Below, in pieces: positions 1,989 to 26,998 of a DNA stretch of 35,065 nucleotides. Each line of letters begins with the position of its first letter. Positions within the stretch are counted from its first letter, which is position 1. Below the pieces are notes generated by a model. The model did no database searches. It saw nothing but the letters and a program-made list of their open reading frames with translations, and was not told the origin of the DNA. The translations under genes were made by a program, and so were the position numbers. Source of the DNA: Bacteroidales bacterium. GTDB lineage: Bacteria; Bacteroidota; Bacteroidia; Bacteroidales; Dysgonomonadaceae. The stretch spans positions 1-35,065 of the forward strand of contig DUPB01000001.1 of assembly GCA_012838585.1 (NCBI GenBank). The letters are read 5' to 3'.

Positions 1989-3098
1989 CTACTTGTTGAG
2001 CAGATCCTCCGACTTCACCCGCATCAAGCTAATCGCCTTGAGCATCCACTTGGGCAAGGGTTTCTCGGGGTGCCTGTTTTTGAGGTTGAGGCTCAGCCCC
2101 AGCTTCTTGGCGATAGGAACCTTGTGGGTCTCCACGAACTCTATTAGCGTGCCGTCGGGATCCTCGATATAGGCAAACTGGCCGGCGGCATCGCCCATGT
2201 CGAACGAGTCGCCCTCTTTGAACCGTTGGCTGCTATCGACAGTGAAGGGGTGGCCTTTCTCCGCGCAGAATTTCCCCAGTGCCTCCATGTTGCGAATATC
2301 GAAACAGACCTGGATGAAGCCCGGGTCGCCCCAGAAGCGTCCTTCGTACAGTTTCTTAGGGGTTCGATCCAGTGCCTGTACCAGTTCGATGGAGGAGGAG
2401 CCGAAGAGTTGGCTGAAGCTCCCTTTCCTCGGTTGCGAATGGGTAAGCAGTCGCCGGCGGTAGGCACGCGTTCCCGCGGGGAGGGCCTTGAAGTCGGCGA
2501 AGATACCGGTCTCATCGGCCACGATGGTGTCGTAGCCCAGGATATCGCGGTAAACGGTCATTGCCCGGTCGATTTCGGTGACACCTATGGTAGCACCCGC
2601 AACGCCGGCGGTCAGCTTTTTCTCATCCTTGAAGATATAATCGTCCTGAACTACTTGAAACAGGTTGCCGTATGGATCCTTCATGTAGAAGGTGGAGTGC
2701 CCGTCGATGCCTTGATTCACCTCTCCAATGAGGTTAGCCTTGGGGTTTTTCGAGAACTGCTCGTAGGCGGCCATCACGTCGCGGCTTTTGATCTTGCAGA
2801 CCAACACCCCCAGGTCGCCCATGTTCAACTCGAAGCCGATGGGCTGGGGCTTACGTTCAGCGTATTGCCACACCTCGAAGCCGCCGCCGCCCTGCATGTT
2901 CACGGTGATGCAGGCGTGACGCCGCTGCGGCTTGCCCCCGGTGTAGGGGAGCATCAGTTCCGCCGTCTTGTCGTCCTCCAGGATGCGGATGTCCATGTTG
3001 AACAGGTCGATGTAGTAGCTCCACGCCTCGTAGAGGTTTTCCACGCCAATACCTACTTGTTGAATTCCCGAAATAATAAATCCCTTATCGCTACTCAT
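1989..3098 (-). CDS. double VOC-domain (glyoxalase/dioxygenase fold) protein of the sulfonolipid cassette
   Basis: A 369-residue protein with two vicinal-oxygen-chelate regions at about residues 8-150 and 160-325, the layout of extradiol dioxygenases and hydroxyphenylpyruvate dioxygenase. Typical strand ends are visible: GIQQVGIGV, DPYGNLFQVV, PGFIQVCFDI and DPDGTLIEFVE. The usual first metal-ligand histidine is Gln or Ala at these places, while Glu remains in SIELVQ and LIEFVE, so any metal site is not canonical. A basic tail of about 40 residues (ending KWMLKAISLMRVKSEDLLNK) could lie on the membrane. I chose the ATG at 3098 because homology to VOC proteins begins just after it. An upstream in-frame ATG at 3194 would add 32 low-complexity polar residues. 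The gene follows the reductase gene in the same direction. The reaction is unknown. Confidence 0.8.
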   Translation of the reverse strand: MSSDKGFIISGIQQVGIGVENLYEAWSYYIDLFNMDIRILEDDKTAELMLPYTGGKPQRRHACITVNMQGGGGFEVWQYAERKPQPIGFELNMGDLGVLVCKIKSRDVMAAYEQFSKNPKANLIGEVNQGIDGHSTFYMKDPYGNLFQVVQDDYIFKDEKKLTAGVAGATIGVTEIDRAMTVYRDILGYDTIVADETGIFADFKALPAGTRAYRRRLLTHSQPRKGSFSQLFGSSSIELVQALDRTPKKLYEGRFWGDPGFIQVCFDIRNMEALGKFCAEKGHPFTVDSSQRFKEGDSFDMGDAAGQFAYIEDPDGTLIEFVETHKVPIAKKLGLSLNLKNRHPEKPLPKWMLKAISLMRVKSEDLLNK

Positions 3099-3198
3099 GG
3101 TTGCTTGTTTGTTTATTCGTTGATTGACTTGGTCGTTTTTCGTTGGGCGTGGATTGGTTGTTGATTTGCATTTTGCCTTTTCCGTGAAAGGCATTCAA

Positions 3199-3990
3199 TC
3201 ACGTCGCCTTGATTTTTCTCACTATTTTCCTTGCCACTCCCGGCAGGAACCGCTTGATGTACACCATCAGCAGCTCTTTACCGCCTACCAGCACCTCCGG
3301 CTTTTGGCGGTGGATGGCCTGCACGATTTTTCGTGCTGCCTTTTCAGATGAGATGCCACCGGCCTGTCCCTCGTCCATCCGGCCATGCTTTTGTCCATCG
3401 CCTTTCAGCGAGTTGTAGGAGATGTGGGTCTTTACCCGGCCGGGGCAAACCATTACCACCCGGATGTTCTGGTCGTAATATTCAGCGTGAACGGTTTCAA
3501 AAAAGCCGTACAACGCGAACTTTGACGATGCGTAGGCCGAGCGCAGCGGGAAGCCAAACCTACCCGAGATACTGGTGGTGACCGCTACCGTGCCGCCCCC
3601 GTTGGCGATCATCGCGGGCAGGAGCCGCTTCGCGATCTTTACCGGGGCGAAGAAGTTGACGTCCATGATCTTCTTGTCCACGCTGTACGAGGTATCCAGG
3701 GCGCGGGCACGCTGGCTGATGCCGGCGTTGAGGAACACGATGTCGATGCTTCCAAAGAGAGCGATCGCTTGGTTGGTCAACCCGTCGATGCCCGTTAAGT
3801 CGGAGAGGTCATAGGGTAACACCTCGCACCGGGCCCCCAGCCGGGTGCATGCTTCTTGCACCTCTATCAGCCGCTCCACGCGGGTTGCGGTGAGGATGAG
3901 GTTGGCCTTCTCCTTGGCCCACAGGTAAGCACACGCCTCGCCAATGCCTGATGACGCCCCCGTGATCCATATCGTTTTACCGTTCTTCAT
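3199..3990 (-). CDS. capC: short-chain dehydrogenase/reductase, probable 3-ketocapnine (dehydrocapnine) reductase
   Basis: Classical SDR of 263 residues: nucleotide-binding TGASSGIG at 10-17, NAGIS at 88-92, the serine region at about 140, and the catalytic Tyr153/Lys157 in YASSK. The C-terminus (VYIKRFLPGVARKIVRKIKAT) is amphipathic and very basic, as in SDRs that act on membrane lipids such as 3-ketosphinganine reductases. Its ATG overlaps the stop of the upstream PLP-enzyme gene by 4 bp, a sign of coupled translation. From this context, and from the characterised capnine route, I infer that it reduces the 3-keto group of the condensed cysteate-acyl product with NAD(P)H. The family assignment is sure; the substrate is inferred. 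The cap name follows published usage as I recall it. Confidence 0.8.
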   Translation of the reverse strand: MKNGKTIWITGASSGIGEACAYLWAKEKANLILTATRVERLIEVQEACTRLGARCEVLPYDLSDLTGIDGLTNQAIALFGSIDIVFLNAGISQRARALDTSYSVDKKIMDVNFFAPVKIAKRLLPAMIANGGGTVAVTTSISGRFGFPLRSAYASSKFALYGFFETVHAEYYDQNIRVVMVCPGRVKTHISYNSLKGDGQKHGRMDEGQAGGISSEKAARKIVQAIHRQKPEVLVGGKELLMVYIKRFLPGVARKIVRKIKAT

Positions 3991-5321
3991 TCATCTTCCT
4001 CCAGCACTTCCTTCCAGAGCTGTTCGCGGAAGTCGTCGATGACGTGCGGTGAACATTCTTCTACTTTTTTCACTTTACGCGTGGTGTAGATCATCTGCTC
4101 CAAGAAGTAGGGTGCGCGGTTGGCTCCCTCACCGATATTCACGAGCACCGTCTCCCCATCTTTAATCAGGTTTTTCCTAAGGGCGATAAAGAAGCCGGCC
4201 ATACAGACCGCCGAGGCGGGGCCCGGAATCACCTTCTTCTCGTAGGCCATCAGCTTGCCGACGGGTAGGAGTTTCTCCTCCCGCATCCTCAGGAAGCTGC
4301 CACCCGACTCTTTCACCAGCTTCGCCACGATGGGGTAGGTACCCGGGTTGCCGGTAGCCAGGGTGGGAACCTCGGTCTGGGGGTTGTCGATGATGGGGTA
4401 GTTCTTCTCGAACCCCTCGGGGAACCCGGCCGCTTCCGCCGCCTCCCACGCTTGAACCATGGGATCGCACTTGTCGGTCTGTACCAGCAGGAAGCGGGGG
4501 TTCTTCAACTCGGGGTAGATGGGCTTGATCTCACGAATCCCCTTATCGACGGCGATGGGACCCGTACCGCCGCTCACCGCCTGAATATAGACATCGGGTA
4601 TCCGGTCTATCTGGCGGAGCCACTCGAAGACCATCGTCTTTTTGGCTTCCACCCGTATCGGGTCGATGTTACCTGCCGAAATAGGTATGTTGTGGGCGGC
4701 GGCGTATCCCGCGGCGATCTCCTTTGCCTTGGCGTAGTCGCCCATCACCCGGAAGACCTGCTGCCCGTAGGAGCTGATGGTGGCTTCAGAGGCTTTGAGG
4801 GCGTCTTCCGGCATGAAGACGGAACAGTTGACACCGGCCATGGAGAGGTACATGGCGTAAGCTGTCGCCGAGTTACCGGTGGAGGCGATGCAGTACTGAT
4901 CGATGCCGATCTCCTTGAAGAGGCTGGCAGCCAACGAGGCGGCGATGTCCTTGAAGGTCCCGGTGCCCCCGTTCAGGTCGTTTCGATAGACGTGCACCTG
5001 AATGTTTAGCCCGTGCTCCCTCTTCGCGAACTCTTCCAGGAAGGTCCACCTTTCCAAGGGGATGGCTCCTTCCCCCTTGCTCACGATGTGACGCCTGCGC
5101 AACAGCGGCAGGAAGGGGAAGTAGTGCCAGAAACTGTTGGGCGTGCGCTTGATGATGCGGGGCAACCGTTGATACCTACGGTTATACGAAACTTCGGAGT
5201 GTTTGCTCCCGCACTTGGGGCATTGCTGCCCCTGATCGAACCAGGTCCAGAAATTGGGGGTTTCCGTCCTGCATTGGGTACAGGTTAAGGTGTACTTGTT
5301 TTGAATTTTTACTCGAAGCAT
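3987..5321 (-). CDS. capA: threonine-synthase-like PLP enzyme, probable cysteate synthase
   Basis: Fold-type II PLP enzyme of 444 residues. It opens with a zinc-ribbon-like segment (Cys14, Cys17, Cys34, Cys37). The PLP lysine is Lys124 in GGTGTFKD, followed by STGNSA (147-152) and the glycine loop SGGTGP (250-255) that would hold the cofactor phosphate. True threonine synthases share this fold, but methanogen cysteate synthase, which makes L-cysteate from O-phosphoserine and sulfite, evolved from the same family, and a homologue supplies cysteate for capnine. The gene sits between an alpha-oxoamine synthase (76 bp upstream) and an SDR (4-bp overlap), which favours cysteate synthase over housekeeping threonine synthesis. 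There are no thrA or thrB genes nearby. Phosphoserine as the substrate here is inference. Confidence 0.8.
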   Translation of the reverse strand: MLRVKIQNKYTLTCTQCRTETPNFWTWFDQGQQCPKCGSKHSEVSYNRRYQRLPRIIKRTPNSFWHYFPFLPLLRRRHIVSKGEGAIPLERWTFLEEFAKREHGLNIQVHVYRNDLNGGTGTFKDIAASLAASLFKEIGIDQYCIASTGNSATAYAMYLSMAGVNCSVFMPEDALKASEATISSYGQQVFRVMGDYAKAKEIAAGYAAAHNIPISAGNIDPIRVEAKKTMVFEWLRQIDRIPDVYIQAVSGGTGPIAVDKGIREIKPIYPELKNPRFLLVQTDKCDPMVQAWEAAEAAGFPEGFEKNYPIIDNPQTEVPTLATGNPGTYPIVAKLVKESGGSFLRMREEKLLPVGKLMAYEKKVIPGPASAVCMAGFFIALRKNLIKDGETVLVNIGEGANRAPYFLEQMIYTTRKVKKVEECSPHVIDDFREQLWKEVLEEDE

Positions 5322-5397
5322 GGTGTTAGGTTTTAAAATTGATAGGCGCGAGTTGAGTTAGTCATTCGTGCTTTTGATGCTTTTTGGGGGTGACAAA

Positions 5398-6660
5398 TCA
5401 CGAGACCGCCATCGACTGCACCTCGTCTGCTTTATACTTTCCGGCATCCAGGTTTGCCTTGATCTTCTTGAATACTTCAATGGTCTCCTCCACCTCCCTC
5501 TTGGTGTGTGACGCGGTGGGTATCAGCCGGAGCATGATCACATCCCTGGGAACCACCGGGTAGACCACGATGGAGCAGAACACGTGGTGGTTCTCGCGTA
5601 GGTCGATCACCACGTTGGTGCCTTCCGCCACGGTGCCGCTCAGGTAGACCGGCGTGACAGGCGATTGGGTGTTGCCGATGTTAAACCCTTCGGCGACCAG
5701 TCCCTCTTGCAGCACCTTGGCCACCTTCCAGAGGTTCTCTCTGTGCTGGGGTTGCGTTTGGAGCATCTCCAGCCGCTTGAGTGCGCCCACGACCATCGGC
5801 ATGGGTAGGGATTTCGCGAAGATTTGCGACCGCATGTTGTACTTGAGCGAGTCCACGATCGCTTTATCAGACGCGACGAACGCCCCGATACCGGCCATTG
5901 ACTTAGCAAAGGTCGCGAAGTAGATGTCCACCTCGTCCATCACCCCGAAATGCTCGCTGACACCCGCCCCGGTTGCTCCCATGGTGCCAAAGCCGTGGGC
6001 GTCATCGATCATCAGCCTGAAATCGTACTTCTCCCTCAGTTTGAGAATCCCCGGGAGGTCGCCCAAGTCGCCCGACATGCCAAATACCCCTTCGGTGATG
6101 AGCAGGATGCCGCCGTTGTTCTCTTTGGCTTGGCGGGTGGCGAAGCCCAGCATCCTGTCGCACCGCTCCATGTCGTTATGCGGGTAGACGTAGCTTTTGC
6201 CTCCCTTGGCCTTGTGGAGGAAGATACCGTCCATGATGCAGGCATGTGACTCGGAATCGTACACGATTACATCGTTCCGTGTGGCCAGGGAGTCGATGAT
6301 GGAGACCATGCCCTGGTAGCCGTAGTTGAGGAGGTAGGCCGACTCTTTCTTCTCGAACCGGGCGAGCTTCTCTTCAAGTTCCCGGTGCAGTTTGGTTTGG
6401 CCCGACATCATCCGGGCACCCATGGGGTAGGCCATACCCCAATCGGCCGCGGCCTTGGCGTCTGCCTCACGTACCTCCGGGTGGTTGGCCAGTCCCAGGT
6501 AATTATTTAAACTCCAGGTGATTACTTCCCTGCCGAGGAATTTCATCCTAGGGGCGATCTCCCCCTCCAACTCAGGGAACATGAAGTACCCCTCCGCCTT
6601 CTTGCGATACTGCTCAAGCGGACCTTCGGCACTTTTTAGCCGATCAAAAATGTCTGTCAT
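5398..6660 (-). CDS. capB: alpha-oxoamine synthase, probable cysteate fatty-acyltransferase
   Basis: Fold-type I PLP enzyme of 420 residues from the family of serine palmitoyltransferase, KBL and BioF. His139 (DSESHACIMDG) should stack on the cofactor, Asp220 and His222 lie in IDDAHGFG, and the internal-aldimine lysine is Lys253 in ATFAKSMAGIGAF. The family condenses an amino acid with an acyl thioester and releases CO2. The expected reaction here is cysteate plus acyl-CoA or acyl-ACP giving 3-ketocapnine. As I recall them, Bacteroides serine palmitoyltransferases have a different N-terminus and lack a threonine-synthase-like neighbour, so I favour the sulfonolipid enzyme over sphingolipid synthesis. 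It is the first gene of the cassette, behind a possible promoter. The family is certain; the amino-acid substrate is inferred from neighbours. Confidence 0.82.
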   Translation of the reverse strand: MTDIFDRLKSAEGPLEQYRKKAEGYFMFPELEGEIAPRMKFLGREVITWSLNNYLGLANHPEVREADAKAAADWGMAYPMGARMMSGQTKLHRELEEKLARFEKKESAYLLNYGYQGMVSIIDSLATRNDVIVYDSESHACIMDGIFLHKAKGGKSYVYPHNDMERCDRMLGFATRQAKENNGGILLITEGVFGMSGDLGDLPGILKLREKYDFRLMIDDAHGFGTMGATGAGVSEHFGVMDEVDIYFATFAKSMAGIGAFVASDKAIVDSLKYNMRSQIFAKSLPMPMVVGALKRLEMLQTQPQHRENLWKVAKVLQEGLVAEGFNIGNTQSPVTPVYLSGTVAEGTNVVIDLRENHHVFCSIVVYPVVPRDVIMLRLIPTASHTKREVEETIEVFKKIKANLDAGKYKADEVQSMAVS

Positions 6661-7166: not shown

Positions 7167-7233
7167 GCCGTTAGGGTGCGGTATTACTGTTTGGCGTTGG
7201 GGTGCGGCATTACTGTATGGCGTTGGGGTGCGG
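7167..7233. repeat. 26-bp tandem repeat spanning the pssA stop codon
   Basis: Two full 26-bp units (7167-7192 and 7193-7218) and a 15-bp partial third (7219-7233). Unit core on the plus strand: GGCGTTGGGGTGCGG followed by (C/T)ATTACTGT. The pssA stop codon (7210-7212) is inside the second unit, so the last codons and the stop of pssA are copied once more downstream. The units differ at a few bases. Confidence 0.85.
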
Positions 7234-7998
7234 AATAAGCGAGAGTAGGATGTAGGCGAGTACCCCCATGGCGATGCCGACGAATCCCCACAGGGCGACG
7301 AAGGCGATAACCAGCACCGCGAGCAGCAGTTGTCGTTCGTTACCTTTTACCGCGAACCGATCCATCTTCAGGGAAAACATGGGCAACTCGGTGACCATCA
7401 GGGGGGTGAGCAGGATAAGGAATCCGAGGGTGATGTACAGCAGCGCTTGCCCCCCAATCGGTAGCAGGGTGTGGATACCTTGGCAATAGCCGACCCAGAA
7501 CAGGCCGTTGGCCGGCGTGGGCAGACCCAGGAACGAGCGGGTTTGCCGCTTGTCGATATTGAATTTGGCGAGTCGGTAGGCCGAGAAAAGCGGGATCAAG
7601 AATGCCAGGTAAGGGATAATGGTCAGAAGGGGTGTGGGGAGCAGTGTACTTTCAAGTAGTTGAGGGTTACCCTGGAGCAGTGAGTCACCTGGTAACAGCG
7701 TGCCATCCGTGGATAGCGCTCCACCGGGGCGCAAAAGACCATCCCTTAAGAAGACGAAAAGTGCCGAAGCGGGTGCTACCCCAAAACTTACCACGTCGGC
7801 CAGGGAGTCCAGCTCCTTGCCCAGGGGCGAGTAGGCGTTCAGGAGCCTGGCTACCATGCCATCCAGGAAGTCGAACAGGGCAGAGACCAGCACGGCGATG
7901 GCCATACCGGTAAAGCGACCTTGGAAAGCCAGCGTGATCGCGATGCAGCCCGACAGGAGGTTGAGGAGCGTGAGCAGGTTAGGTATATGTTTGCGCAT
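7210..7998 (-). CDS. pssA: CDP-diacylglycerol-serine O-phosphatidyltransferase
   Basis: Makes phosphatidylserine from CDP-diacylglycerol and L-serine at the inner membrane, the first step to phosphatidylethanolamine. The CDP-alcohol phosphatidyltransferase signature DGx2ARx8Gx3Dx3D is complete: Asp46, Gly47, Ala50, Arg51, Gly60, Asp64 and Asp68. The rest is a row of hydrophobic helices typical of this family. At about residues 88-125 there is a Gly/Leu-rich hydrophilic loop (with GGALSTDGTLLPGDSLLQG) that I do not expect in most family members and that makes the protein somewhat long at 262 residues. It follows psd by 6 bp and is surely co-transcribed with it. Its 3' end lies in a tandem repeat. 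Confidence 0.93.
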   Translation of the reverse strand: MRKHIPNLLTLLNLLSGCIAITLAFQGRFTGMAIAVLVSALFDFLDGMVARLLNAYSPLGKELDSLADVVSFGVAPASALFVFLRDGLLRPGGALSTDGTLLPGDSLLQGNPQLLESTLLPTPLLTIIPYLAFLIPLFSAYRLAKFNIDKRQTRSFLGLPTPANGLFWVGYCQGIHTLLPIGGQALLYITLGFLILLTPLMVTELPMFSLKMDRFAVKGNERQLLLAVLVIAFVALWGFVGIAMGVLAYILLSLIPHPNAIQ

Positions 7999-8004
7999 AC
8001 TGGT

Positions 8005-8712
8005 TTATTGTTTCATTTTAGGCGACTTGGTTTCGGGCGACTTCATTTCGGGTAATCGAGCCAGGATAGTGACGTTGGCCCAGACTTGTTCGCCCAGCTT
8101 CACCATTATTTCACTATCGACCGGCAGGAAGATATCCATTCGGGAGCCCAGCTTGATGAACCCCAGTGGGGAGCCGATAAGCACCTCGTCGTCCTCGTGC
8201 ACGTAGGTGACAATCCTACGGGCGACTGCCCCGGCAATCTGTTTCGTTAGGATGGTGCCGTGGTTGGGGGTCTCGATCACGATGTTGGTGTGCTCGTTCT
8301 CGTGGCTTGATTTGGGGAGGTAGGCCGCCCAAAAATTCCCCGACACGTGCGATAGGTGGGTAATCTTGCCGCTCACCGGCACCCAGTTGGCGTGCGCGTT
8401 GAAGAGCGACATGAAGATGGAGACCTGGATGCGCTCTTCGTTGAAGAACTGCCTCTCGAACACCTTTTCTATCACCACCACCTTGCCATCGGTGGGTACG
8501 TTCACCAGCCCGTGCAGCTTTCCCTTGTATACCCGACGCGGTTTCCGGTAGAAGCAGAGGGTAAACGCGAACAGCACGATTGATATAACGAGGACGGTAA
8601 TCGGGAACCAGTGGTTGGGCAGGCATAGGAACAGCACGCCGTTGAGTATCAACAGCACGACAAATACCTTCGCCAGAGCGGCTTTTCCCTCTTTGTGAAT
8701 GAATTGCAGCAT
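8005..8712 (-). CDS. psd: phosphatidylserine decarboxylase proenzyme, short form
   Basis: Pyruvoyl enzyme that decarboxylates phosphatidylserine to phosphatidylethanolamine. Of 235 residues, the first 55 or so hold two membrane segments, followed by FYRKPRR. PTDGKVV (Asp75), FNAHANWVPVSG (His107) and the self-cleavage motif LGS (188-190, in FIKLGSRMD) are present, so Ser190 should become the pyruvoyl group. This is the short type seen in many Bacteroidota and archaea rather than the longer LGST enzyme of E. coli. The C-terminus ends in a small lysine/proline repeat (EMKSPETKSPKMKQ). It pairs with pssA downstream; a heptamer array separates it from the cvpA-like gene upstream. Confidence 0.93.
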   Translation of the reverse strand: MLQFIHKEGKAALAKVFVVLLILNGVLFLCLPNHWFPITVLVISIVLFAFTLCFYRKPRRVYKGKLHGLVNVPTDGKVVVIEKVFERQFFNEERIQVSIFMSLFNAHANWVPVSGKITHLSHVSGNFWAAYLPKSSHENEHTNIVIETPNHGTILTKQIAGAVARRIVTYVHEDDEVLIGSPLGFIKLGSRMDIFLPVDSEIMVKLGEQVWANVTILARLPEMKSPETKSPKMKQ

Positions 8713-17296: not shown

Positions 17297-20200
17297 CTAA
17301 TGTATCAATACCCGTTTCACCTCTCGTTGGGTAGGCCCGTGCACTTTCACGATGTAAATGCCCCGGTGGAGTGACCCCGAGTTAAGTACCGTTTCCATGC
17401 TGTTGTATTTGATTTTTGTTTTCAACACCTGTTTGCCAGTCACGTCATACACCTCTATCATACAATCCTCACCCGATTGGTTGATTACCTTCACCCCTTC
17501 GTAACGATGGCTGTATATTTTTATAAAATGTTCATTTTCGATAGGCTCCTTGTCGATTACCGAGGAGATGTTCGTCTCCGAGGTCACGATCTTGAATCGT
17601 TGTCCGTTATCTCCCTCTTTCGCGGTAAAGGAGTATTCCGCCCCGCTCTTTAGCGTTACGCGTGCACCTGTTTGGGTATCCACGAGCGATAGGTTGCGGG
17701 CCGCGATATCCGGTGAAACCGAAAATTCAAGTGTGTACTTCCCGTCCATTTCGGCGGTAAAGCCAAAGTACGTATCTATCAAGTCCCCCACGGTGGCTAC
17801 CTGGTAGCTGTTACCGTCTGAGCCGGCAACGTAGATTTGTGCCAGCCCGGTCTCGAAGATTTTCTCACCGTCCCAACCGTTGTCGAACCCTTGCGTGGTG
17901 CCCGGTTGTTGGAATAGCCATACCCTATCCGCCGATTCCGTGCCCAGCACATCGATAACCACGTTGGGGAGCGGCGTTGCTTCGGGGGGAGAGTCTTTCT
18001 CTCCCTCTGGGGAAGTGGTTGAGCGCCAAGCAACCTGTTGGTTATCAGTGCCAATTACCTTTGCATTCCTCCCTAGTTTGGCATAATCAATGGTAAGCGA
18101 TGGGGTGGGGGTTGTTCCGGTAACCTTCACGAAAAACGCGTGCATAGAGGGAATAATAGCCGGCAAGAGAATGTCAGTGCCATCTTCAGCTGTTTGTCCC
18201 GCCAAGTTTTGAGGAACAGACAGGTATTGTCCCGAGCTCAATCCCGATGCAGCGGAGCCGTTGAGTTTACGCCATTCATCGCGCGTACCGGTATTGAACA
18301 GGTAAACCGTCGCCTCTATTGTTCCGTCGTCCTTTCCCGTGAAGGTAAGTCCATGCTTAATATCAATAGCCGCCGTGTAGCTGTTGCCCACCAGGTTCAT
18401 TCCCGGGTAATTCACGTTACTGGTGAATGTTAACGTTCTGGGAGTGGATGGTGCTGTATTGGTGCCAAAATCAATGGTGGTATTACTCGTAACCAGTTCG
18501 CCTTCAAAATTGTAAAGGTTGGGATCTAAACTTCCGGGAGCATCCGTGCCTTCACGGGTGATCTCGTACCCCTCGAACGCTTTCAACGGGTTGGCGGCGG
18601 TAACCCATTTGTTCCCATTCACGAATTCATCCCACCTGTTCACGATTTCGTTGCCCGCGACATCGTTATAAGGAAAGTCGGCCGATTTTACCGGGATACC
18701 GAAGTATTGCCAGCTTTTTTTGTACATGCCGCAATCTTTGCACTCGTAACCTTTATTGAAGAATTGCACGGTGGCACTTACGTTTTGGTTTTGAGTAGGA
18801 TTGGTGAATTTCAACGTGCCGGTGGGTACATCGGGGGCCGATTGTACAACAATGGTACCGGCGGTAGCGTTTTCGTCTTGCACGGTGCCCCCGATGGTAA
18901 GCTGACTTCCGGTGGTGACCACCAAATCTTTGTCGGAATGATTAATCAGGTCGCCGATAGTTCTCTCTTTACTCTCCCCGGGTTGTGCCAAATAGAGGTG
19001 GTTTACCGCGGGGGAGCCAAGGTTGTTGGTTGTCGTGGCAAACTCCACATCTTCACCTGAGTCAGGAATGACATGTTGCGTCCAGTTTGTAGGGGTGTCC
19101 CAATTGGTTGGGTTTGTAGCGGTGGTATTGCCCATCCAATAGTTATTGCATTGGCTGTGGATAGTCGCGTCTTTCGATTCTCCCACACCTTGACCGATGT
19201 CGCTACTGCTATCGGCGTCGGTTGCATCGGCTGTACCCGCTATGCCTGAAGTGTTTGCAGCCGCGGGGTTTACCAGTTCCGGTACACCGTAAGCTTCTGT
19301 ATGCTTACTAACAATCTCCGCGGGTGTACCTTCTGTTGTGCCGTCTGCTTTTACCTTTATCTGTCCGGGATAATCCGGGTGTGTTAATGGATGTACCTGT
19401 TTCAGAAGAACCCTTTCACTGCCTTCCACGGCATCGGGGCATCCGTCACCATCGCTGTCAACATTTAAATAATCTGGTGTGCCGTCGCTATTGGAGCTGC
19501 AAAGTGTGCGTACGGCAAAGCCGAATGCACCGCCACCGGCGCGTGCTTTTATTCTTACCTCTATTTTGTGTTCGCTCAAGGTGTGGTCTATGGTTTCAAA
19601 CAGAGCATTTACATTGCTTGGTGTACCCGACACGTTATTATCGGTGTAATAATAAGTAATGTTACGCTTGTCGGTACTAAGTCTGATTTTCGGAACCGTA
19701 ATGCTGTAGCCTCCATCAGCTGTTGCAGTAACCTGTTGGGTGTAATCGCCGGTGCCGGTTTTTTCAAGCAGTTGGAAACCTTTACCGAAATCTATAAAGT
19801 TTATATCTTCCGTAAAGTTATTAGTTATCTTTAAACTGGTTGCCTCGGCATCAAATACCACCAATTTAAATGGTACGGGCTTATTCGGGTCTCCTTCTTT
19901 ATGGGCTTTAACTTTTATCCAAAATTTAGCTTCTCCTACTAGTGATTTATTATGAATACTTATTGCTTCTTTAAATCCTTCACCATTAACATTGTAATAG
20001 CGATGTATCATCTGAGCAGGACCCGCACTCCATGTATCTATATCGTGTCCAACAAAAGATGGTACAGTTGAACTTACAGGTGCCGTTATAAAATCGGCAG
20101 TACCTCCAATATTCGTTCTATTATCCACATCGTAATAGGTAATTTCTGCGGTATATGTAACTCCGTTGTATGTGGCTGTGACAGGATGTGTTTGTCCTAT

Positions 20201-23200
20201 CTGATCCCAAGTAAGACCCGATAAATTGAAGAAGCCGAGTTGGTTTTTAAATTCACCGTCTCCAGTGGTTGTTGCAACCGGCAAATCGGGGTTGCCACAA
20301 TGAAGCTCATCAACATCGAGTATTCCATCGTTATCGTTATCCAGGTCGTAAATATCGGGAACTCCATCGCCATCGCTGTCGGTACAAGCATTTACAAGGG
20401 GGTTTTTTGAATAGCCGGCGCCTTGTCCAACGTCACCGCCCACATCGGCAGCACCGCCGGCGTTTACTAAGTTAGGAACTCCGTCGGCATTTACACCGCC
20501 ACTTATACTTCCGTTAGCATTCAGATGTGTGGCAGTTACATTTTCGTCGCCTTCAATAGCATCGTAGCAGCCGTCTCCATCAGACTCTAAATCTAAGAAG
20601 TTAGGAATTCCGTCTGAGTCGGCATCGCAGAGCGTACGCACAGCAAAACCGAATCCTTGACAGCCACTACGAGCTTTTACATCAACTCTAACTATGTGAT
20701 TTGATGAGGTAAAGTCGATGGTTTCAAACAGACCGTTCACGTTACTTGGCAAATTCGTTAAGTTGGCAGTATGGTTGAAGTCAAGGATACGATTATCGGG
20801 ACTTAATTCAACTTTTTTTGCAGTACGCGTAAAATCCCCGTGAGTCACGGTTACCACATCGTCGTAATTGGCTGTTCCTGTTTTTTCAAGCGATTGGAAA
20901 CCTTTTCCTTGCAAGTCGGTAAATTTTACTTGTCCGTACCAATTGTTTAAAGCCTCTACTCCTGAACCTTCCGCGTCAAATACTACCAATTGGAAGGGTA
21001 CAGGATTATCCGGTTGTCCTTCTATATGAGCTTTTACATCAATTTTAAAACTTGCCTCGCCGTGCAGTGGTTTTGCTCCTGTGGCATTTTTATCATAATA
21101 TATTGCTTCTTTAAAGTTAGTGCCGTTTACATTGTAGTAATTTTTTATCATTTGCGGTTGGGTATCGACATTCCAAGTATTCATATCCCATCCTTCAAAC
21201 TTAGGTACCAAACCACTGTCGTTTAAATCTCTGAGGTCAGTTGTAGTGTTGCCGCTTGGAATAGACTTGTTATATATATCTATATAGGTAACTTCGGCGG
21301 TGTAAGTAACTCCGTTGTAGGTGGCAGTACGGGTAACTTTATCACCTATCGCATTCCACTCGGCATCGGTAAAGTCGAAGAAACCGAGTTGTGTTTTGTA
21401 CTGACCTCTACCTACAGTTGCTGCAATCGGCAGGTCGGGATTGTTGCAATAAAGCTCGTCTATATCTAATATTCCGTCATTATCGTTATCAAGGTCGTAA
21501 ATATCGGGAACTCCGTCGCCGTCTGTGTCGGTACAAGCATTTACAAGGGGATTTTTTGAATAGCCGGCACCTTGTCCAACATCTCCGCCAATATCGGCAG
21601 CACCGCCGGCGTTTACTAAGTTAGGAACTCCGTCGGCATTAACACCGCCATTAGCGGTTATATTGATACTTCCATCATTATTTAGATGATCAGATGTTAC
21701 ATTTTCATCGCCTTCAATGGCATCGTGGCAACCATCGCCATCGGAGTCTAAATCGAGGAAGTTAGGAATGCCGTCGCTATCGCTATCGCATAGCGTACGT
21801 ACTGCAAAACCAAATGCTTGAGCACCACTACGTGCTTTCAAATCAACTCTAACAGAGTGGCTTGACATTGTATAATCGATAGTTTCAAACAGACCGTTCA
21901 CGTTACTTGCCAGCTCAGGTATATTGGCAGTATGGTTATAGTAGAGGATTCGATTATCAGGACTTAAATCAACTTTTTTTACAGTACGAGTAAAAGTGTG
22001 ATGAGTTGCGGTTACAATATCGTCGTAGTTAGCTGTTCCTGTTTTTTCAAGCGATTGGAAACCTTGTCCTTGCAGGTCGGTAAATGTTACTTGCCCGGGC
22101 CAATTGTTAAAAAGTTTCAACCCCGAGCCTTCCGCGTCGAATACTACCAATTGGAAGGGTACAGGTTCCTCAGGATGATTTTCTTTATAAGCTTTCACAT
22201 CTATCTGAAAGCTTGCTTCGCCGTACAGTTGTCTATTTCCTCCCGCGGTATTATCGTAAAATATTGCCTCTTTAAAGTTAGTGCCGTTTACATTGTAGTA
22301 GTTTTTTATCATTTGTGGTTGGTTGTCAACATTCCACGTATTCATATCGTAACCGATAAATATAGGCACATTGGGATTGTCGGGCAGCAATGTAAGGTCG
22401 GTTGTAGTGTTATTTGGAATTTGCTTGTTGTATATATCTATATAGGTAACTTTGGCTTCATATGTAACACCGTTGTAGGTAGCTGTTACAGTATGTTCAT
22501 GTCCTATATGATCCCAAGTGAGACCGGTAAAATCGAAGAACCCGAGTTGTGTTTTGTATTTACCTTTTCCAGTAGTTGTAGCTATCGGCAAATTTGGGTT
22601 GTCGCAATAAAGTTCGTCAATGTCAAGTATCCCGTCGTTATCGCAGTCAAGGTCGTAAATATCGTAAACACCGTCACCATCTGTATCGGTACAGAGATTT
22701 ATATTTTGGTTGTTGGAATAACCTACACCTTGTCCTACGTCTCCGCCAATATCGGCAGCACCACCGGAGTTAACCAAGTTGGGAACGCCGTCGGCATTTA
22801 CATCGCCATAATTAACTATATCGATACTACCGTCACTATTTAGATGTTCGGGAGTTACATTTTCATCGCCTTCAAAAGCGTCAGGGCAACCGTCTCCATC
22901 GCTATCAAGGTCTAATCGATTGGGAATACCGTCGTTATCGGTATCTATATCTGTGCATGAAGTATATCTGATTTCATATACACGCAAAGGAGAAGAATAG
23001 CTTTGGTTAGTTACTTTAAAGTAACGTGCATCTTCCGGCAACATACATGTTGCTTTTCTTCCGGCTTCACCTATTGTAGCTGAGTAAAAATAAGGATCTA
23101 AAGATTTAAAACCGGTAGTTGGAGATGAAGAATATTCAAATTTTGGAGCAGGGTCTTCTTTGTAATAGTAGACATCAATATAGGTACCTTCGGGTTTTAC

Positions 23201-26200
23201 AGCATTATCTAAATCAACAGTTATATATGAGTAACTATTGTTAGTGTAGTAAGACTGCAATGTTGCATAGGTGTTAAAAGAGCCGTCTATAGCATTGTTG
23301 TAAGTGTTACCTGTATATCCGCTTGCTTCATAAAGGGGTGACTTGTCTAAAGCAATGCAATCCATTTCGTCTGTATCCAATATGCCATCGTTATCATCAT
23401 CCAGGTCTAATATATCAGGAATTCCATCGTTATCTGAATCTAATGGAGTAAGCGAAGTTTCACATAACTCTACAAAATAACCATAGCCATTATTCGAGCT
23501 ACTACCAACATTGGTTTTCGGGTTGGTAATGGTTAACGAAGTGAAAGGGGTAGCGGTGGATGTTACCACAATAGCGGCATCGGTTACTGTTTGATTCAAA
23601 TCGTTTACTTGAACCGAATGACCGTAAATATGTACCTTGCCTTTACAGTCTATACCGGTAGGATTCTTCTGTAAAGTAAAGTTAGTAATCGGGTTGTCGT
23701 TTTCATCTTTAATTGAAAAGTTAGCCCAATCATCAGCGCTTGTTGCTCCTATGTTTCCCATGAGTAGTAGGAAAACTTGTACAGAGGTTTGCGGGTTACT
23801 AAAAGTATAGGTAACGGAGTGCTGTGTGTAATTGCCAGTGTCTTCCGATCTTAACCAGGCATATCCTGCTGAATAGTAGGATTGACAACCGTTGACGCTC
23901 TGTCCCTGTGAATATAAATCGCGAGTCAATGTCCGTTGTACTTTTACCCCGTTAAGTATGCTGAATGTGTTAGTGCTTTTGTCGAACAGAGGCTGTGGTG
24001 GCACATTATCGCAAAGTTCAGTAACTAAGTTGCCTTCCGGAAGTACATTGATAATAAGTAGAGCGGTGCTTGTTGCACCGTAAACAGTATGGGAAATTGT
24101 ATATTTCAGCACTACCCGCCCGGTAAAGTCGGTTTGGGAATTGAAAGTGTACTCACCGTTATTCTTGAGAGTGATTGTACCGGCTAACGTACCACTTACA
24201 GTATAAACAGGGGTAGGAGTGGTCGCATCAATCGTTAAGGGCGTAAAAACTCCTGCGCTGTTATGATATTCTGCACCGGTAACTTTGATATTGGTGTCGG
24301 TTTTATCATAAACATCATTTTCCATTACATTGTCTGTAACATTGGTATTCACAGGAATTTTAATGTTGTCGTTTACGGCATTAATGTCACAAACATCGGG
24401 AATGCCGTCGCCGTCTGAATCGACAAACTGTATATTCACGGTTTTACTAGTGCTACATCCGTTGTTGTCGGTGATGGTAACCGTATAATCGCCATAGTCA
24501 GAACCGGAAAAATTCGTAATGGTCGGGTTTTGCTCGTTTGAACTGTAACCGTTTGGTCCCTCCCACAGCCAAGATGTAACGCTAGAGGAGTTGCTCCACC
24601 TTGCGCCAAGATTTACCATATCCTGTGTTGCCGTTTCGGTTGGTGTAAAACTTGCATTAAGTGTAGCAGTTGGACCGAGGCAAGTAAATGATATATTTGC
24701 ATCCAGTTTCGGCTTTGGATCAACGTTTACCGTAATAAAATGTGTTCCGCCACAAGGATTATAATCTTTCACTCTACCCGCGGCATCGGTTATTTTTAAG
24801 CCTACAAAGCGATAGGTTACGCCCTCAAGGTCGTTATTGTTTGGTACGTCAACATGTATGGCAATAGAGCCGGCTTCGGAAGTTTTAGTTCGTACATCAC
24901 CTTCCTGCCAAGCCGTCATTCCGGGAGCCAGTTTATCTATACGATACTCAAAAGTAAAAGGCGCTACTCCCGTATCGGAAAAGGCACTTACTTTTGTTGT
25001 AGCAATTTCACTAATACAGATATTAGTTTCGGTAATTAGTGGTGTTATGGATATATCGGTTCCAATGGTTGCTTCTATATGGGGGTTAAAAGTTGTTGCC
25101 GCTTCAGGACATGGAAAATTTGATGCGTCCGGTATGGTTTGAGGAGGTACCGGGATATTGGGATTAACGCCGAACTGGTTTCCGGCGCTAGCGAAGTAAA
25201 ATCTTCTAATGGTACCTGTTTGCGGGTAAGTTGCTTGCGCATGTTGCATATAGCAGTTCGTTATTGGAGTTGCACTAGTACCTATATTGACTCTGCCATC
25301 AAAAGAAATATCCTTGGTGTTATCGTACGCGGCTGTATTGCCCCAAAACTTACAATTATCCAATATATTCAACACACTACTACCAGTGATAGGACCGTCA
25401 ACCTTTATGGCTCCACCGTTACGTCCTGTTTGGTTATCAAGGAAATTGCAGTTATAAAAAGCTATATTTTGGTCTGAGTTATTTATAAAAAGGACAGCAC
25501 CACCGCCTTGTGCAGATAATGCACCATTCATTCCGGCTTTGTTGCTATAAAATATATCATTGGTTGAACTAAAAGTGAAATTTCCATCGTGTGCAATAGC
25601 TCCCCCCGAATGCCTCGCTTCGTTGTTTATATACATACAGTTGCTACTTGTAAAACTACCGTCTTCAACGCAAATTGCACCTCCTCTAACAAGATTATTT
25701 ACAGTTGATCCTACAGTTTTATTCCCTAAAAAAATACAATTTTGAACCGTCAAAGGAGCATCTTTAGCACGAATTGCACCGCCATGTGCTCTTCCTAAGC
25801 CGCTAAGAGCTGTATTGCCATAAAACTTATCGCCTTCAACAACGTAAGCCTTAGTGAAGCCGGCACCAAGGTCATGAGTCAAGTTGAAGGAATAGGCAGC
25901 ACCGTCTCTGCCATCAGAAGTATTATTGTAAAACACATTGTTTTTGATGGATTTGGCATAGCATTTATCTAGATGTACTGTTGCACGTCCAACATTGTCC
26001 GAAAAAGTGTTGTTTTCGAGGGTTACTTCGCCACCCTCTACAAATATACACGTACCTACACCTGTACCAATATGGTCGTTTGTACAAAACACATTGTTTT
26101 TGAAAACAGCTTTTGTGCCGTTACTTGCCACGTTGGTTTGTATTTTGAATAAGGAACCGGCATCTACCTCACGCGTTGTATTATTAGTAAAGGTACAGTT

Positions 26201-26998
26201 TTCGACATTAAGCTTAATGTTTTTGTTAGCACCGCCAAGTGCGATATTCCTGTATACTCTAAGAAAACCTCCCCCCGTTGTTACTCCAGCGCCATCGCCC
26301 ATTTGTCCACCGGAAACATACACGTTCTTGAACCTAAGAGCGTGGTTGTCAGACCCATATATATAAATGAATGACCCTGCATTTGACCTGTAGTTTTTCA
26401 CGTAGCAGTACTCCATTGTTATCGTTGCATTGTTTGAGTACATGGTACAGGTTAAAAGTGTGCCATCGGCGGCACCACCCGCGGTAGTCGTGTTGTCGTA
26501 GGTTAAGCCTCTAAAATATACATTTGTGGATTGAGTTTCAACTGGACTTCCTACGGCACTTGGGCCAATTCTGATAACGCTGGCATTAGCAGTTGGCTCA
26601 ATATCTATTATGGTAGGATATGCTTCTACACATATATTACAAGTATCGGTAGCACTTGTAAATTCGTTGGGTACAGGGAAACCACCAATAAAACGGATTG
26701 TTTTGTTTCCTGTAAGTTCAATAGATTGACTTGCGGTATATCTGCCTTCTGCCATGTATATGGTATAGGTTCTACCGTCGTTAGTACCTAAGCCTATAGT
26801 TTGACAAGCTTTACCAACTGTCTTAAAAGCCGTTTGCCAGGTTAAGCCGTCATTCGCATCGTTACCTGTATTCCATGAAACGAAATAGGGTGCTGGATCT
26901 TGGGCTTGTGCTGTTAAACTACTTGCAAATAGCGCTAACAGTAGCAAAAGCACTGTTATTAAATATAATCTATATGAAATGACTTTTTTCATTATCAT
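17297..26998 (-). CDS. giant type IX-secreted surface protein with beta-helix, TSP3 and three large repeats
   Basis: A 3,233-residue protein. A signal peptide (to about residue 32) is followed by a right-handed beta-helix (about 38-600) with many GGAI/NN-turns as in polymorphic outer-membrane proteins, Ig/PKD-like regions (about 640-860), a cadherin- or VCBS-like region (about 875-985), an unassigned domain (about 1000-1180), a discoidin-like region (about 1212-1340), and then three copies of a 385-residue unit starting at Cys1436, Cys1822 and Cys2205. Thrombospondin type-3-like Ca-binding segments (DTDGDGVPDIYDLD and variants) join the modules. Past 2620 come further beta-rich domains. The last 75 residues or so (VYDVTGKQVLK, GIYIVKVHG, KRVLIH) form a type A type IX sorting domain, so it should cross the outer membrane and be anchored or released. 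The start may be Met3 (26992). It follows the fimbrial lipoprotein genes by 77 bp and is AT-rich. Ligand unknown; adhesion is a guess. Confidence 0.88.
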   Translation of the reverse strand: MIMKKVISYRLYLITVLLLLLALFASSLTAQAQDPAPYFVSWNTGNDANDGLTWQTAFKTVGKACQTIGLGTNDGRTYTIYMAEGRYTASQSIELTGNKTIRFIGGFPVPNEFTSATDTCNICVEAYPTIIDIEPTANASVIRIGPSAVGSPVETQSTNVYFRGLTYDNTTTAGGAADGTLLTCTMYSNNATITMEYCYVKNYRSNAGSFIYIYGSDNHALRFKNVYVSGGQMGDGAGVTTGGGFLRVYRNIALGGANKNIKLNVENCTFTNNTTREVDAGSLFKIQTNVASNGTKAVFKNNVFCTNDHIGTGVGTCIFVEGGEVTLENNTFSDNVGRATVHLDKCYAKSIKNNVFYNNTSDGRDGAAYSFNLTHDLGAGFTKAYVVEGDKFYGNTALSGLGRAHGGAIRAKDAPLTVQNCIFLGNKTVGSTVNNLVRGGAICVEDGSFTSSNCMYINNEARHSGGAIAHDGNFTFSSTNDIFYSNKAGMNGALSAQGGGAVLFINNSDQNIAFYNCNFLDNQTGRNGGAIKVDGPITGSSVLNILDNCKFWGNTAAYDNTKDISFDGRVNIGTSATPITNCYMQHAQATYPQTGTIRRFYFASAGNQFGVNPNIPVPPQTIPDASNFPCPEAATTFNPHIEATIGTDISITPLITETNICISEIATTKVSAFSDTGVAPFTFEYRIDKLAPGMTAWQEGDVRTKTSEAGSIAIHVDVPNNNDLEGVTYRFVGLKITDAAGRVKDYNPCGGTHFITVNVDPKPKLDANISFTCLGPTATLNASFTPTETATQDMVNLGARWSNSSSVTSWLWEGPNGYSSNEQNPTITNFSGSDYGDYTVTITDNNGCSTSKTVNIQFVDSDGDGIPDVCDINAVNDNIKIPVNTNVTDNVMENDVYDKTDTNIKVTGAEYHNSAGVFTPLTIDATTPTPVYTVSGTLAGTITLKNNGEYTFNSQTDFTGRVVLKYTISHTVYGATSTALLIINVLPEGNLVTELCDNVPPQPLFDKSTNTFSILNGVKVQRTLTRDLYSQGQSVNGCQSYYSAGYAWLRSEDTGNYTQHSVTYTFSNPQTSVQVFLLLMGNIGATSADDWANFSIKDENDNPITNFTLQKNPTGIDCKGKVHIYGHSVQVNDLNQTVTDAAIVVTSTATPFTSLTITNPKTNVGSSSNNGYGYFVELCETSLTPLDSDNDGIPDILDLDDDNDGILDTDEMDCIALDKSPLYEASGYTGNTYNNAIDGSFNTYATLQSYYTNNSYSYITVDLDNAVKPEGTYIDVYYYKEDPAPKFEYSSSPTTGFKSLDPYFYSATIGEAGRKATCMLPEDARYFKVTNQSYSSPLRVYEIRYTSCTDIDTDNDGIPNRLDLDSDGDGCPDAFEGDENVTPEHLNSDGSIDIVNYGDVNADGVPNLVNSGGAADIGGDVGQGVGYSNNQNINLCTDTDGDGVYDIYDLDCDNDGILDIDELYCDNPNLPIATTTGKGKYKTQLGFFDFTGLTWDHIGHEHTVTATYNGVTYEAKVTYIDIYNKQIPNNTTTDLTLLPDNPNVPIFIGYDMNTWNVDNQPQMIKNYYNVNGTNFKEAIFYDNTAGGNRQLYGEASFQIDVKAYKENHPEEPVPFQLVVFDAEGSGLKLFNNWPGQVTFTDLQGQGFQSLEKTGTANYDDIVTATHHTFTRTVKKVDLSPDNRILYYNHTANIPELASNVNGLFETIDYTMSSHSVRVDLKARSGAQAFGFAVRTLCDSDSDGIPNFLDLDSDGDGCHDAIEGDENVTSDHLNNDGSINITANGGVNADGVPNLVNAGGAADIGGDVGQGAGYSKNPLVNACTDTDGDGVPDIYDLDNDNDGILDIDELYCNNPDLPIAATVGRGQYKTQLGFFDFTDAEWNAIGDKVTRTATYNGVTYTAEVTYIDIYNKSIPSGNTTTDLRDLNDSGLVPKFEGWDMNTWNVDTQPQMIKNYYNVNGTNFKEAIYYDKNATGAKPLHGEASFKIDVKAHIEGQPDNPVPFQLVVFDAEGSGVEALNNWYGQVKFTDLQGKGFQSLEKTGTANYDDVVTVTHGDFTRTAKKVELSPDNRILDFNHTANLTNLPSNVNGLFETIDFTSSNHIVRVDVKARSGCQGFGFAVRTLCDADSDGIPNFLDLESDGDGCYDAIEGDENVTATHLNANGSISGGVNADGVPNLVNAGGAADVGGDVGQGAGYSKNPLVNACTDSDGDGVPDIYDLDNDNDGILDVDELHCGNPDLPVATTTGDGEFKNQLGFFNLSGLTWDQIGQTHPVTATYNGVTYTAEITYYDVDNRTNIGGTADFITAPVSSTVPSFVGHDIDTWSAGPAQMIHRYYNVNGEGFKEAISIHNKSLVGEAKFWIKVKAHKEGDPNKPVPFKLVVFDAEATSLKITNNFTEDINFIDFGKGFQLLEKTGTGDYTQQVTATADGGYSITVPKIRLSTDKRNITYYYTDNNVSGTPSNVNALFETIDHTLSEHKIEVRIKARAGGGAFGFAVRTLCSSNSDGTPDYLNVDSDGDGCPDAVEGSERVLLKQVHPLTHPDYPGQIKVKADGTTEGTPAEIVSKHTEAYGVPELVNPAAANTSGIAGTADATDADSSSDIGQGVGESKDATIHSQCNNYWMGNTTATNPTNWDTPTNWTQHVIPDSGEDVEFATTTNNLGSPAVNHLYLAQPGESKERTIGDLINHSDKDLVVTTGSQLTIGGTVQDENATAGTIVVQSAPDVPTGTLKFTNPTQNQNVSATVQFFNKGYECKDCGMYKKSWQYFGIPVKSADFPYNDVAGNEIVNRWDEFVNGNKWVTAANPLKAFEGYEITREGTDAPGSLDPNLYNFEGELVTSNTTIDFGTNTAPSTPRTLTFTSNVNYPGMNLVGNSYTAAIDIKHGLTFTGKDDGTIEATVYLFNTGTRDEWRKLNGSAASGLSSGQYLSVPQNLAGQTAEDGTDILLPAIIPSMHAFFVKVTGTTPTPSLTIDYAKLGRNAKVIGTDNQQVAWRSTTSPEGEKDSPPEATPLPNVVIDVLGTESADRVWLFQQPGTTQGFDNGWDGEKIFETGLAQIYVAGSDGNSYQVATVGDLIDTYFGFTAEMDGKYTLEFSVSPDIAARNLSLVDTQTGARVTLKSGAEYSFTAKEGDNGQRFKIVTSETNISSVIDKEPIENEHFIKIYSHRYEGVKVINQSGEDCMIEVYDVTGKQVLKTKIKYNSMETVLNSGSLHRGIYIVKVHGPTQREVKRVLIH
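19420..22693 (-). repeat. three in-frame copies of a ~1.15-kb coding repeat
   Basis: The copies begin at matching Cys-Thr-Asp codons: 22693-21536 (1,158 bp), 21535-20387 (1,149 bp) and 20386 to about 19420 (3' part diverged). Copies 1 and 2 share long identical peptides such as QPQMIKNYYNVNGTNFKEAI and QSLEKTGTANYDD; copy 3 keeps the frame but is more diverged. The TSP3-rich linker (GDENVT, VPNLVN, GGDVGQG) also occurs once before copy 1. Confidence 0.92.

Follow-up and report, generated by a model that had tools for sequence, protein, structure and literature searches.

We analysed a 35,065-nt stretch of DNA from a Bacteroidales bacterium of the family Dysgonomonadaceae (assembly GCA_012838585.1, contig DUPB01000001.1, positions 1 to 35,065; hereafter, the window), with a focus on a sulfonolipid-type gene cassette that ends in a gene for a vicinal oxygen chelate (VOC) protein. 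The genome measures 3.24 Mb and is 99.7% complete. Four genes lie on the minus strand between positions 6660 and 1989, in the order alpha-oxoamine synthase (AOS), PALP-family enzyme dependent on pyridoxal 5'-phosphate (PLP), short-chain dehydrogenase/reductase (SDR) and VOC protein:

5398..6660, minus strand: SulA/CapB, cysteate acyl-ACP (acyl carrier protein) transferase, an alpha-oxoamine synthase and the first gene of the set, named by homology to 7u7h and 28eh and by its marker lysines
3987..5321, minus strand: threonine-synthase-like PLP enzyme (Pfam PALP), candidate third-type cysteate synthase
3199..3990, minus strand: SDR, presumed 3-ketocapnine reductase (CapC/KCR role; adh_short, E 7e-45), overlapping the PALP gene by 4 bp
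1989..3098, minus strand, open frame to 3194: two-domain VOC metalloprotein (metal predicted; Pfam glyoxalase families)

All four products matched Pfam families over cut-off: Aminotran_1_2, PALP, adh_short, and two glyoxalase families (PF00903 and PF13669). An earlier note on this DNA had described four same-strand genes in tight order, and all four frames were confirmed in place. The identical order was found in 18 of 80 named loci (L070, L072-L086, L088 and L093), a recurrence that points to an arrangement beyond chance. These loci are the top 80 of at least 569 relatives, with a bias toward the kin of the window. The closest belongs to a Petrimonas metagenome-assembled genome (MAG; L070), with identities of 99% for SulA, 97% for PALP, 95% for SDR and 89% for VOC.

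The VOC gene probably starts at 3098 (MSSDKG..., 369 aa) instead of 3194, since residues 1-14, 24-26 and 28-32 of the model of the longer frame had a predicted local distance difference test score (pLDDT) below 50, 36 of the 39 other long VOC matches started at query residue 32-40, and the L070 gene has a stop within the upstream extension. The start codons of the relatives were placed near the expected site by a script and carry no weight in this choice.

The AOS was assigned with confidence to SulA/CapB. It matched Alistipes finegoldii SulA (7u7h) over residues 1-410 with E 5e-166 and the cysteate-C-fatty acyltransferase 28eh with E 3e-163; the next-best structure was a serine palmitoyltransferase (3a2b, E 3e-71). 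With residue 21 of the 7u7h chain taken as SulA residue 1, Lys253 and Lys283 of the window protein align with SulA Lys251 and Lys281. Lys251 holds PLP, and Lys281 separates SulA from serine palmitoyltransferase, where the residue is Ala (PMC9304779). The sulfonolipid-type cassette proposed in the earlier note is thus upheld by the SulA match and both marker lysines. In G254, SulA forms the rear part of a fusion with an AMP-ligase and a carrier-protein domain; this kind of fusion is found at L207:2145-5573, with VOC adjoining, and frames of similar length occur in G179 and G219.

With the known capnine pathway (CapA, CapB/SulA and CapC of Capnocytophaga, Ornithobacterium, Alistipes and Chryseobacterium) the window shares a SulA orthologue with both lysines, an SDR in the reductase position and a PLP enzyme in the cysteate position. 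Its genes are clustered, whereas in C. gleum and A. finegoldii the reductases that were tested lie apart from the other two genes (PMC11211663). The window differs further by its extra VOC gene and by a PALP that is unlike CapA2 and closer to threonine synthases. Judged by sequence, the four genes are a sulfonolipid (capnine) cassette, a known kind of pathway with two variant parts, VOC and PALP; what is new here is VOC as an accessory part and the PALP variant. Sulfonolipids of gut and environmental Bacteroidota have been tied to inflammation, gliding and choanoflagellate development, and the route to sulfobacin B was described as having four steps (PMC11211663).

The distribution of the VOC gene was assessed in the named loci, in a phylum sample of 296 genomes (only three from the order of the window) and in an order sample of 114 genomes, nearly all with different family labels. 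In the phylum sample, VOC was detected in 41 genomes and SulA in 108, and all 41 VOC genomes were among the SulA genomes (Fisher p-value 3e-21, uncorrected for relatedness between genomes). These VOC genes span 11 family labels; among the SulA genomes, VOC was present in 26 of 35 with label f24, two of 29 with f6 and none of 10 with f4. The order sample held 42 VOC and 89 SulA genomes, 40 of them with both (p-value 7e-4). Among the named genomes, SulA was searched for in 50 of 80 (33 of the 39 whose locus lacks SulA, plus 17 whose locus contains it), and 44 of the 50 had a SulA-type match of at least 56% identity, five of them partial. The earlier note had considered that VOC homologues might occur mostly away from capB; at the genome level this fails, given the 41 of 41 and 40 of 42 VOC genomes with SulA.

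The survey of gene neighbourhoods, which that note had suggested, gave a mixed answer. On the same strand and within 400 bp of VOC, an SDR was found in 40, SulA in 18 and either of them in 58 of the 80 named loci. An SDR or SulA was as close in only 14 of 29 order loci and two of 29 phylum loci, for which the flanks comprised 1.5 kb. The phylum figure suits a chance or operon-inherited neighbour unrelated to sulfonolipids, an explanation that we regard as highly improbable in view of the genome co-occurrence and of the proximity of VOC to SulA under separate family labels (gaps of 2 to 996 bp in G064, G158, G254, G219 and G179). VOC very probably belongs to the sulfonolipid pathway, by presence and often by position, and as a family nested almost wholly in SulA genomes it offers a concrete candidate for an extra pathway component. 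A literature search found no paper on sulfonolipids together with vicinal oxygen chelate proteins, most subscription papers lying outside its reach; papers pairing sulfonolipid with glyoxalase include one with a roseobacter gene table.

The predicted structure of the VOC protein (pLDDT 90.5, predicted template modelling score 0.88) consists of four paired beta-alpha-beta-beta-beta modules, as in the VOC superfamily. Single-barrel epimerases aligned about 130 residues spread over model residues 33-373, which indicates that module 1 pairs with module 4; methylmalonyl-CoA epimerase 1jc5 (145 residues), for example, aligned 133 residues across this range with Z 11.5 and a root-mean-square deviation (rmsd) of 2.7. 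A few other single-barrel chains fitted modules 1 and 2 (42-183) or 3 and 4 (193-355), with lower Z. At the sequence level, a single-sequence search for a VOC relative of solved structure returned none (one chance match, E 0.59). A profile search of the sequences of solved structures gave five weak matches, the sole one to cover a whole module being the Mycobacterium tuberculosis methylmalonyl-CoA epimerase 6bu2 (E 5e-4), which places a Glu opposite VOC E79. The likeness to methylmalonyl-CoA epimerase thus comprises superposition of its single barrel on modules 1 and 4 and weak sequence matches; the differences are the four modules per chain and a Gln replacing His at strand 1.

Conservation was examined in 110 VOC rows (30 rows plus the 80 named loci), seven of which include a stop: in L080 it falls at residue index 126, in the other six close to the C-terminus. 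Q46, E107, R247, E270 and E352 were invariant in all 110. Position 295 was Gln in 63 rows, including the window, and His in 47. In the model, module 1 carries Q46 on its strand 1 and E107 on its strand 4, and module 4 carries E352 on its strand 4. A quick tree placed the Gln295 rows in one group with a single His row (L102) inside; the residue at 295 required two changes, compared with about 36 in shuffles. Many Gln295 rows come from MAGs whose titles name rumen, omasum, reticulum, caecum or faeces, and from such sample titles many VOC hosts look like anaerobes. The frame in L080 (9992-11083, a Marinilabiliales MAG) has its internal stop near residue 126, a pseudogene or an assembly error. The window protein also has a short loop insert (residues 322-328, window 2211-2231), which varies in letters and length in L070-L085 and which at least 28 of the other 29 rows in the 30-row set lack.

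We propose the following course for the pathway. PALP would make cysteate, with phosphoserine and sulfite as its substrates; condensation of cysteate and acyl-ACP by SulA gives 3-ketocapnine, a step for which homology to a characterised enzyme provides strong support; and the SDR, presumed from its position and family to be the 3-ketocapnine reductase, would reduce the ketone to capnine. The position of VOC close to the SDR suggests a role at the stage of the ketone or the alcohol, and VOC may partner the SDR by acting on the alpha-amino ketone, whose alpha proton is acidic. A site built from module 1 (Q46 and E107) and module 4 (H/Q295 and E352) could hold a divalent metal. Chemistry of the glyoxalase I or methylmalonyl-CoA epimerase type would then chelate the oxygen of the ketone together with an adjacent group and move the acidic C2 proton via an enediolate. 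We put the probability that VOC is such a metal-dependent proton-transfer enzyme with 3-ketocapnine as its substrate at roughly 0.4; metal, proton transfer, substrate and stereochemistry are all inferred. The likeliest net reaction would be epimerisation at C2, which would let a stereospecific SDR use all of the ketone, and the specific assignment as a 3-ketocapnine C2 epimerase is tentative and in that exact form doubtful. Characterised ketocapnine reductases gave two products, read as epimers by the authors, and two A. finegoldii reductases gave a single product (PMC11211663). A C2 epimerase would fit the two products.

Several observations count against this proposal. VOC was found where SulA was undetected in two of the 42 VOC genomes of the order sample and in six of the 50 named genomes searched. 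For f24, the examined loci showed no SulA or SDR up to 1.5 kb from VOC, nor did eight stretches of 17 kb. Conversely, 67 of the 108 SulA genomes of the phylum sample are without VOC, and the step would be dispensable or otherwise performed there; VOC is thus an accessory on which the pathway does not universally depend. E79 varies, with Glu kept in 58 of 63 Gln295 rows and in 17 of 47 His295 rows. The window VOC is not listed among the matches of the glyoxalase I model TIGR00068 or the epimerase model TIGR03081. The metal ligands of human methylmalonyl-CoA epimerase are a His on strand 1, a His on strand 5 and a Glu on strand 8 (PMC6525113), a set not matched by the combination of Gln46 (110 of 110 rows), His or Gln at 295 (Gln in the window) and Glu352 (110 of 110). 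The ligand geometry proposed for VOC was derived from strand positions and aligned ranges. Finally, the best whole-chain superposition was on an oxygenase, 2,6-dichloro-p-hydroquinone 1,2-dioxygenase (4huz; Z 24.5, 277 aligned, rmsd 3.0).

The earlier note had suggested that VOC modifies the acyl chain, for example by hydroxylation, or the headgroup, and this last match bears on a reading of VOC as an Fe(II)- and O2-dependent dioxygenase or hydroxylase with such a role. The VOC superfamily has such enzymes, and hydroxylated sulfonolipids exist. VOC dioxygenases have a triad of two His and one carboxylate, with His at the strand 1 and strand 5 positions. At the presumed counterparts of those two positions, VOC always has Gln46, and Gln also takes position 295 in 63 of 110 rows. 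The two-His-one-Glu set of the ring-cleaving, O2-dependent 4huz is absent from VOC, which has Gln at strand 1 and Glu at strand 4 of module 1. These ligand letters, the pairing of modules 1 and 4, and carriers named after gut compartments and taken as anaerobes disfavour the oxygenase reading despite the fold score, and we consider it very improbable. By its site, VOC resembles the proton-transfer branch of the superfamily more than the oxygenase branch.

After 4huz, the VOC model superposed on 1zsw (Z 23.8, 288 aligned, rmsd 4.6), 3oaj (Z 23.1, 271 aligned, rmsd 3.1), maize glyoxalase I (Z about 22, 266-268 aligned, rmsd 3.3-3.9; 6bnx: 22.0, 268 and 3.9) and GLOD4 (Z 19.6-20.4). The fold likeness to maize glyoxalase I and GLOD4 agrees with another reading, in which VOC, still a proton-transfer isomerase or lyase, acts later or elsewhere, on the headgroup, the acyl chain or a side product, for example in dicarbonyl clean-up. 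Weak matches to the glyoxalase I model point the same way: in an alignment of 63 of 81 VOC sequences (window plus 80; stop-containing, near-copy and cut rows excluded), 52 of the 63 members matched TIGR00068. Thirteen matched the epimerase model TIGR03081, the best E being about 4e-8 for each model, and both counts also fit the chemistry proposed above. The Q/E/H/E letters of the His295 rows, which we take to be those of the human glyoxalase I ligands, and the accessory spread (41 of 108 SulA genomes) also suit a later-acting enzyme. Most of the VOC chain superposes on the single-chain maize enzyme 5d7z (Z 21.8, 268 aligned, rmsd 3.4), from which it differs in identity (15%), in Gln295 in the window clade and in having no evident thiol partner. 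The substrate of glyoxalase I is a thiol hemithioacetal, and no thiol-supplying gene was found in the four-gene set, which argues against a glyoxalase-like role. The frequent pairing with the SDR (40 of 80) favours the ketone or alcohol stage instead, so that a later-acting isomerase or lyase is possible, if somewhat unlikely.

Since VOC folds can be non-catalytic, the protein could also bind the lipid ketone, or the SDR, as a carrier or regulator. The replacement of a metal-ligand His by Gln in the window clade would fit such a role; the five residues invariant in 110 of 110 rows are what a working site would show, and we judge a non-catalytic VOC improbable.

The second variant part, PALP, scored below the cut-offs of the threonine synthase and cysteate synthase models: 158 bits against 303 for the threonine synthase model NF006050, 85 against 167 for TIGR00260 and 100 against 324.9 for the cysteate synthase model TIGR03844, which had no match over cut-off anywhere in the window genome. 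In an alignment of 18 of 28 PALP sequences, all 18 matched NF006050 and TIGR00260 at 1e-10 or better. The structure model (pLDDT 88) had threonine synthases as its top nine fold matches (Z 32.8-36.7). CapA2 of A. finegoldii (9k3c) followed with Z 31.6, 363 aligned and rmsd 2.6, ahead of two further threonine synthase rows, and CapA1 of C. ochracea (9k2p; Z 27.9, 303 aligned, rmsd 3.0) was level with many PLP enzymes and outside the six phmmer matches of PALP at 1e-5. The cysteate routes reviewed are CapA and, in Alistipes and Odoribacter, a distant homologue of archaeal cysteate synthase (PMC10191378). A true TIGR03844 gene does occur in some of the window's relatives (427 bits; E 5e-148 to 9k3c). 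CapA2 shares the fold of PALP, and relatives have CapA2-type genes in gene groups of this kind; identity between PALP and the CapA2-type proteins of related loci is only 18-20%. Score and identity thus rule out the known archaeal-type cysteate synthase, and the earlier note's match of PALP to the cysteate synthase of the characterised route is not supported in that respect.

The two types were never found together. Window-type PALP was present in 27 and CapA2 type in 10 of the 80 named loci, with no locus holding both; the corresponding figures were 25, 33 and zero for the 114 genomes of the order sample and 23, 31 and zero for its 89 SulA genomes (Fisher p-value 8e-6, relatedness uncorrected). 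On the strength of this exclusion, we regard PALP as a candidate third type of cysteate synthase, presumably derived from threonine synthase. If this is true, surveys that use the two known kinds alone misjudge the cysteate source of sulfonolipid makers. PALP might instead serve the organism as its threonine synthase or as some other enzyme of amino acid metabolism, with cysteate coming from an unlinked CapA1-type gene. The best models and folds are indeed threonine synthases, and 35 of the 89 SulA genomes in the order sample carry neither type of PALP. With PALP in only 25 of 114 order genomes, its distribution is too patchy for a threonine synthase; it lies between SulA and SDR in many loci, and the lack of overlap with CapA2 type also speaks for a cysteate role. 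We hold the threonine synthase explanation to be rather unlikely.

Two genomes of the order sample (G363 and G377) have PALP and VOC with SulA undetected. In the phylum sample, window-type PALP was found in the window genome alone (one of 296, with three genomes from its order), and TIGR03844 was matched over cut-off in five of 296 (G085, G183, G239, G242 and G293), all with family label f30. None of the f30 genomes with TIGR03844 has a SulA match at E 1e-100; cysteate possibly serves another use there.

Genes next to the cassette in related loci hint at a possible source of sulfite. A heterodisulfide reductase (Hdr)-like membrane subunit was found near sulfonolipid genes in 25 of the 80 named loci. 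In L117 (13129-18035), HdrC, HdrB, HdrA, a second HdrC and a membrane HdrD/E-like protein form one continuous run between SDR and cysteate synthase, and Hdr-like sets lie inside or beside sulfonolipid genes in L083, L084, L085, L088, L111 and L142 as well. Because sHdr systems form sulfite (PMC10332631), we offer the guess that, by analogy, the Hdr-like complex supplies sulfite without oxygen in gut relatives, with no claim of sHdr membership. The membrane subunit was found in none of the 296 phylum genomes, a sample with no positive control and hence uninformative on its spread. No paper joining sulfonolipids, heterodisulfide reductase and Bacteroid- was found in a search outside which most subscription papers lay. 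The composite picture, with a VOC epimerase step in many Bacteroidota, a third cysteate synthase of independent origin among some Bacteroidales and Hdr-like sulfite supply in gut relatives, is unlikely to hold in full.

Two phospholipid genes lie upstream of the AOS as context outside the set:

7210-7998, minus strand: pssA-type phospholipid gene
8005-8712, minus strand: psd-type phospholipid gene

The same pair is present in 10 of the 80 named loci. A GH26-like gene at 933-1934 was rejected as a fifth member of the set, as it had no tblastn match above 60 bits in the 80 named loci. Predicted promoters (three) and terminators (eight) were as frequent as in shuffles (4.1 and 8.2) and were uninformative. 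A PlsC-like acyltransferase, a candidate for an acylation step, lies beside SDR-VOC or VOC in six of the 80 loci (L121:7755-9119, L130, L133, L143, L146 and L149). Genes for a SiaB-family kinase and SiaC stand shortly ahead of SDR-VOC in L106, L110, L113, L115, L118 and L136. Elsewhere in the window, the minus strand has an open frame of 3233 aa (17297-26998) with repeated blocks visible by eye.

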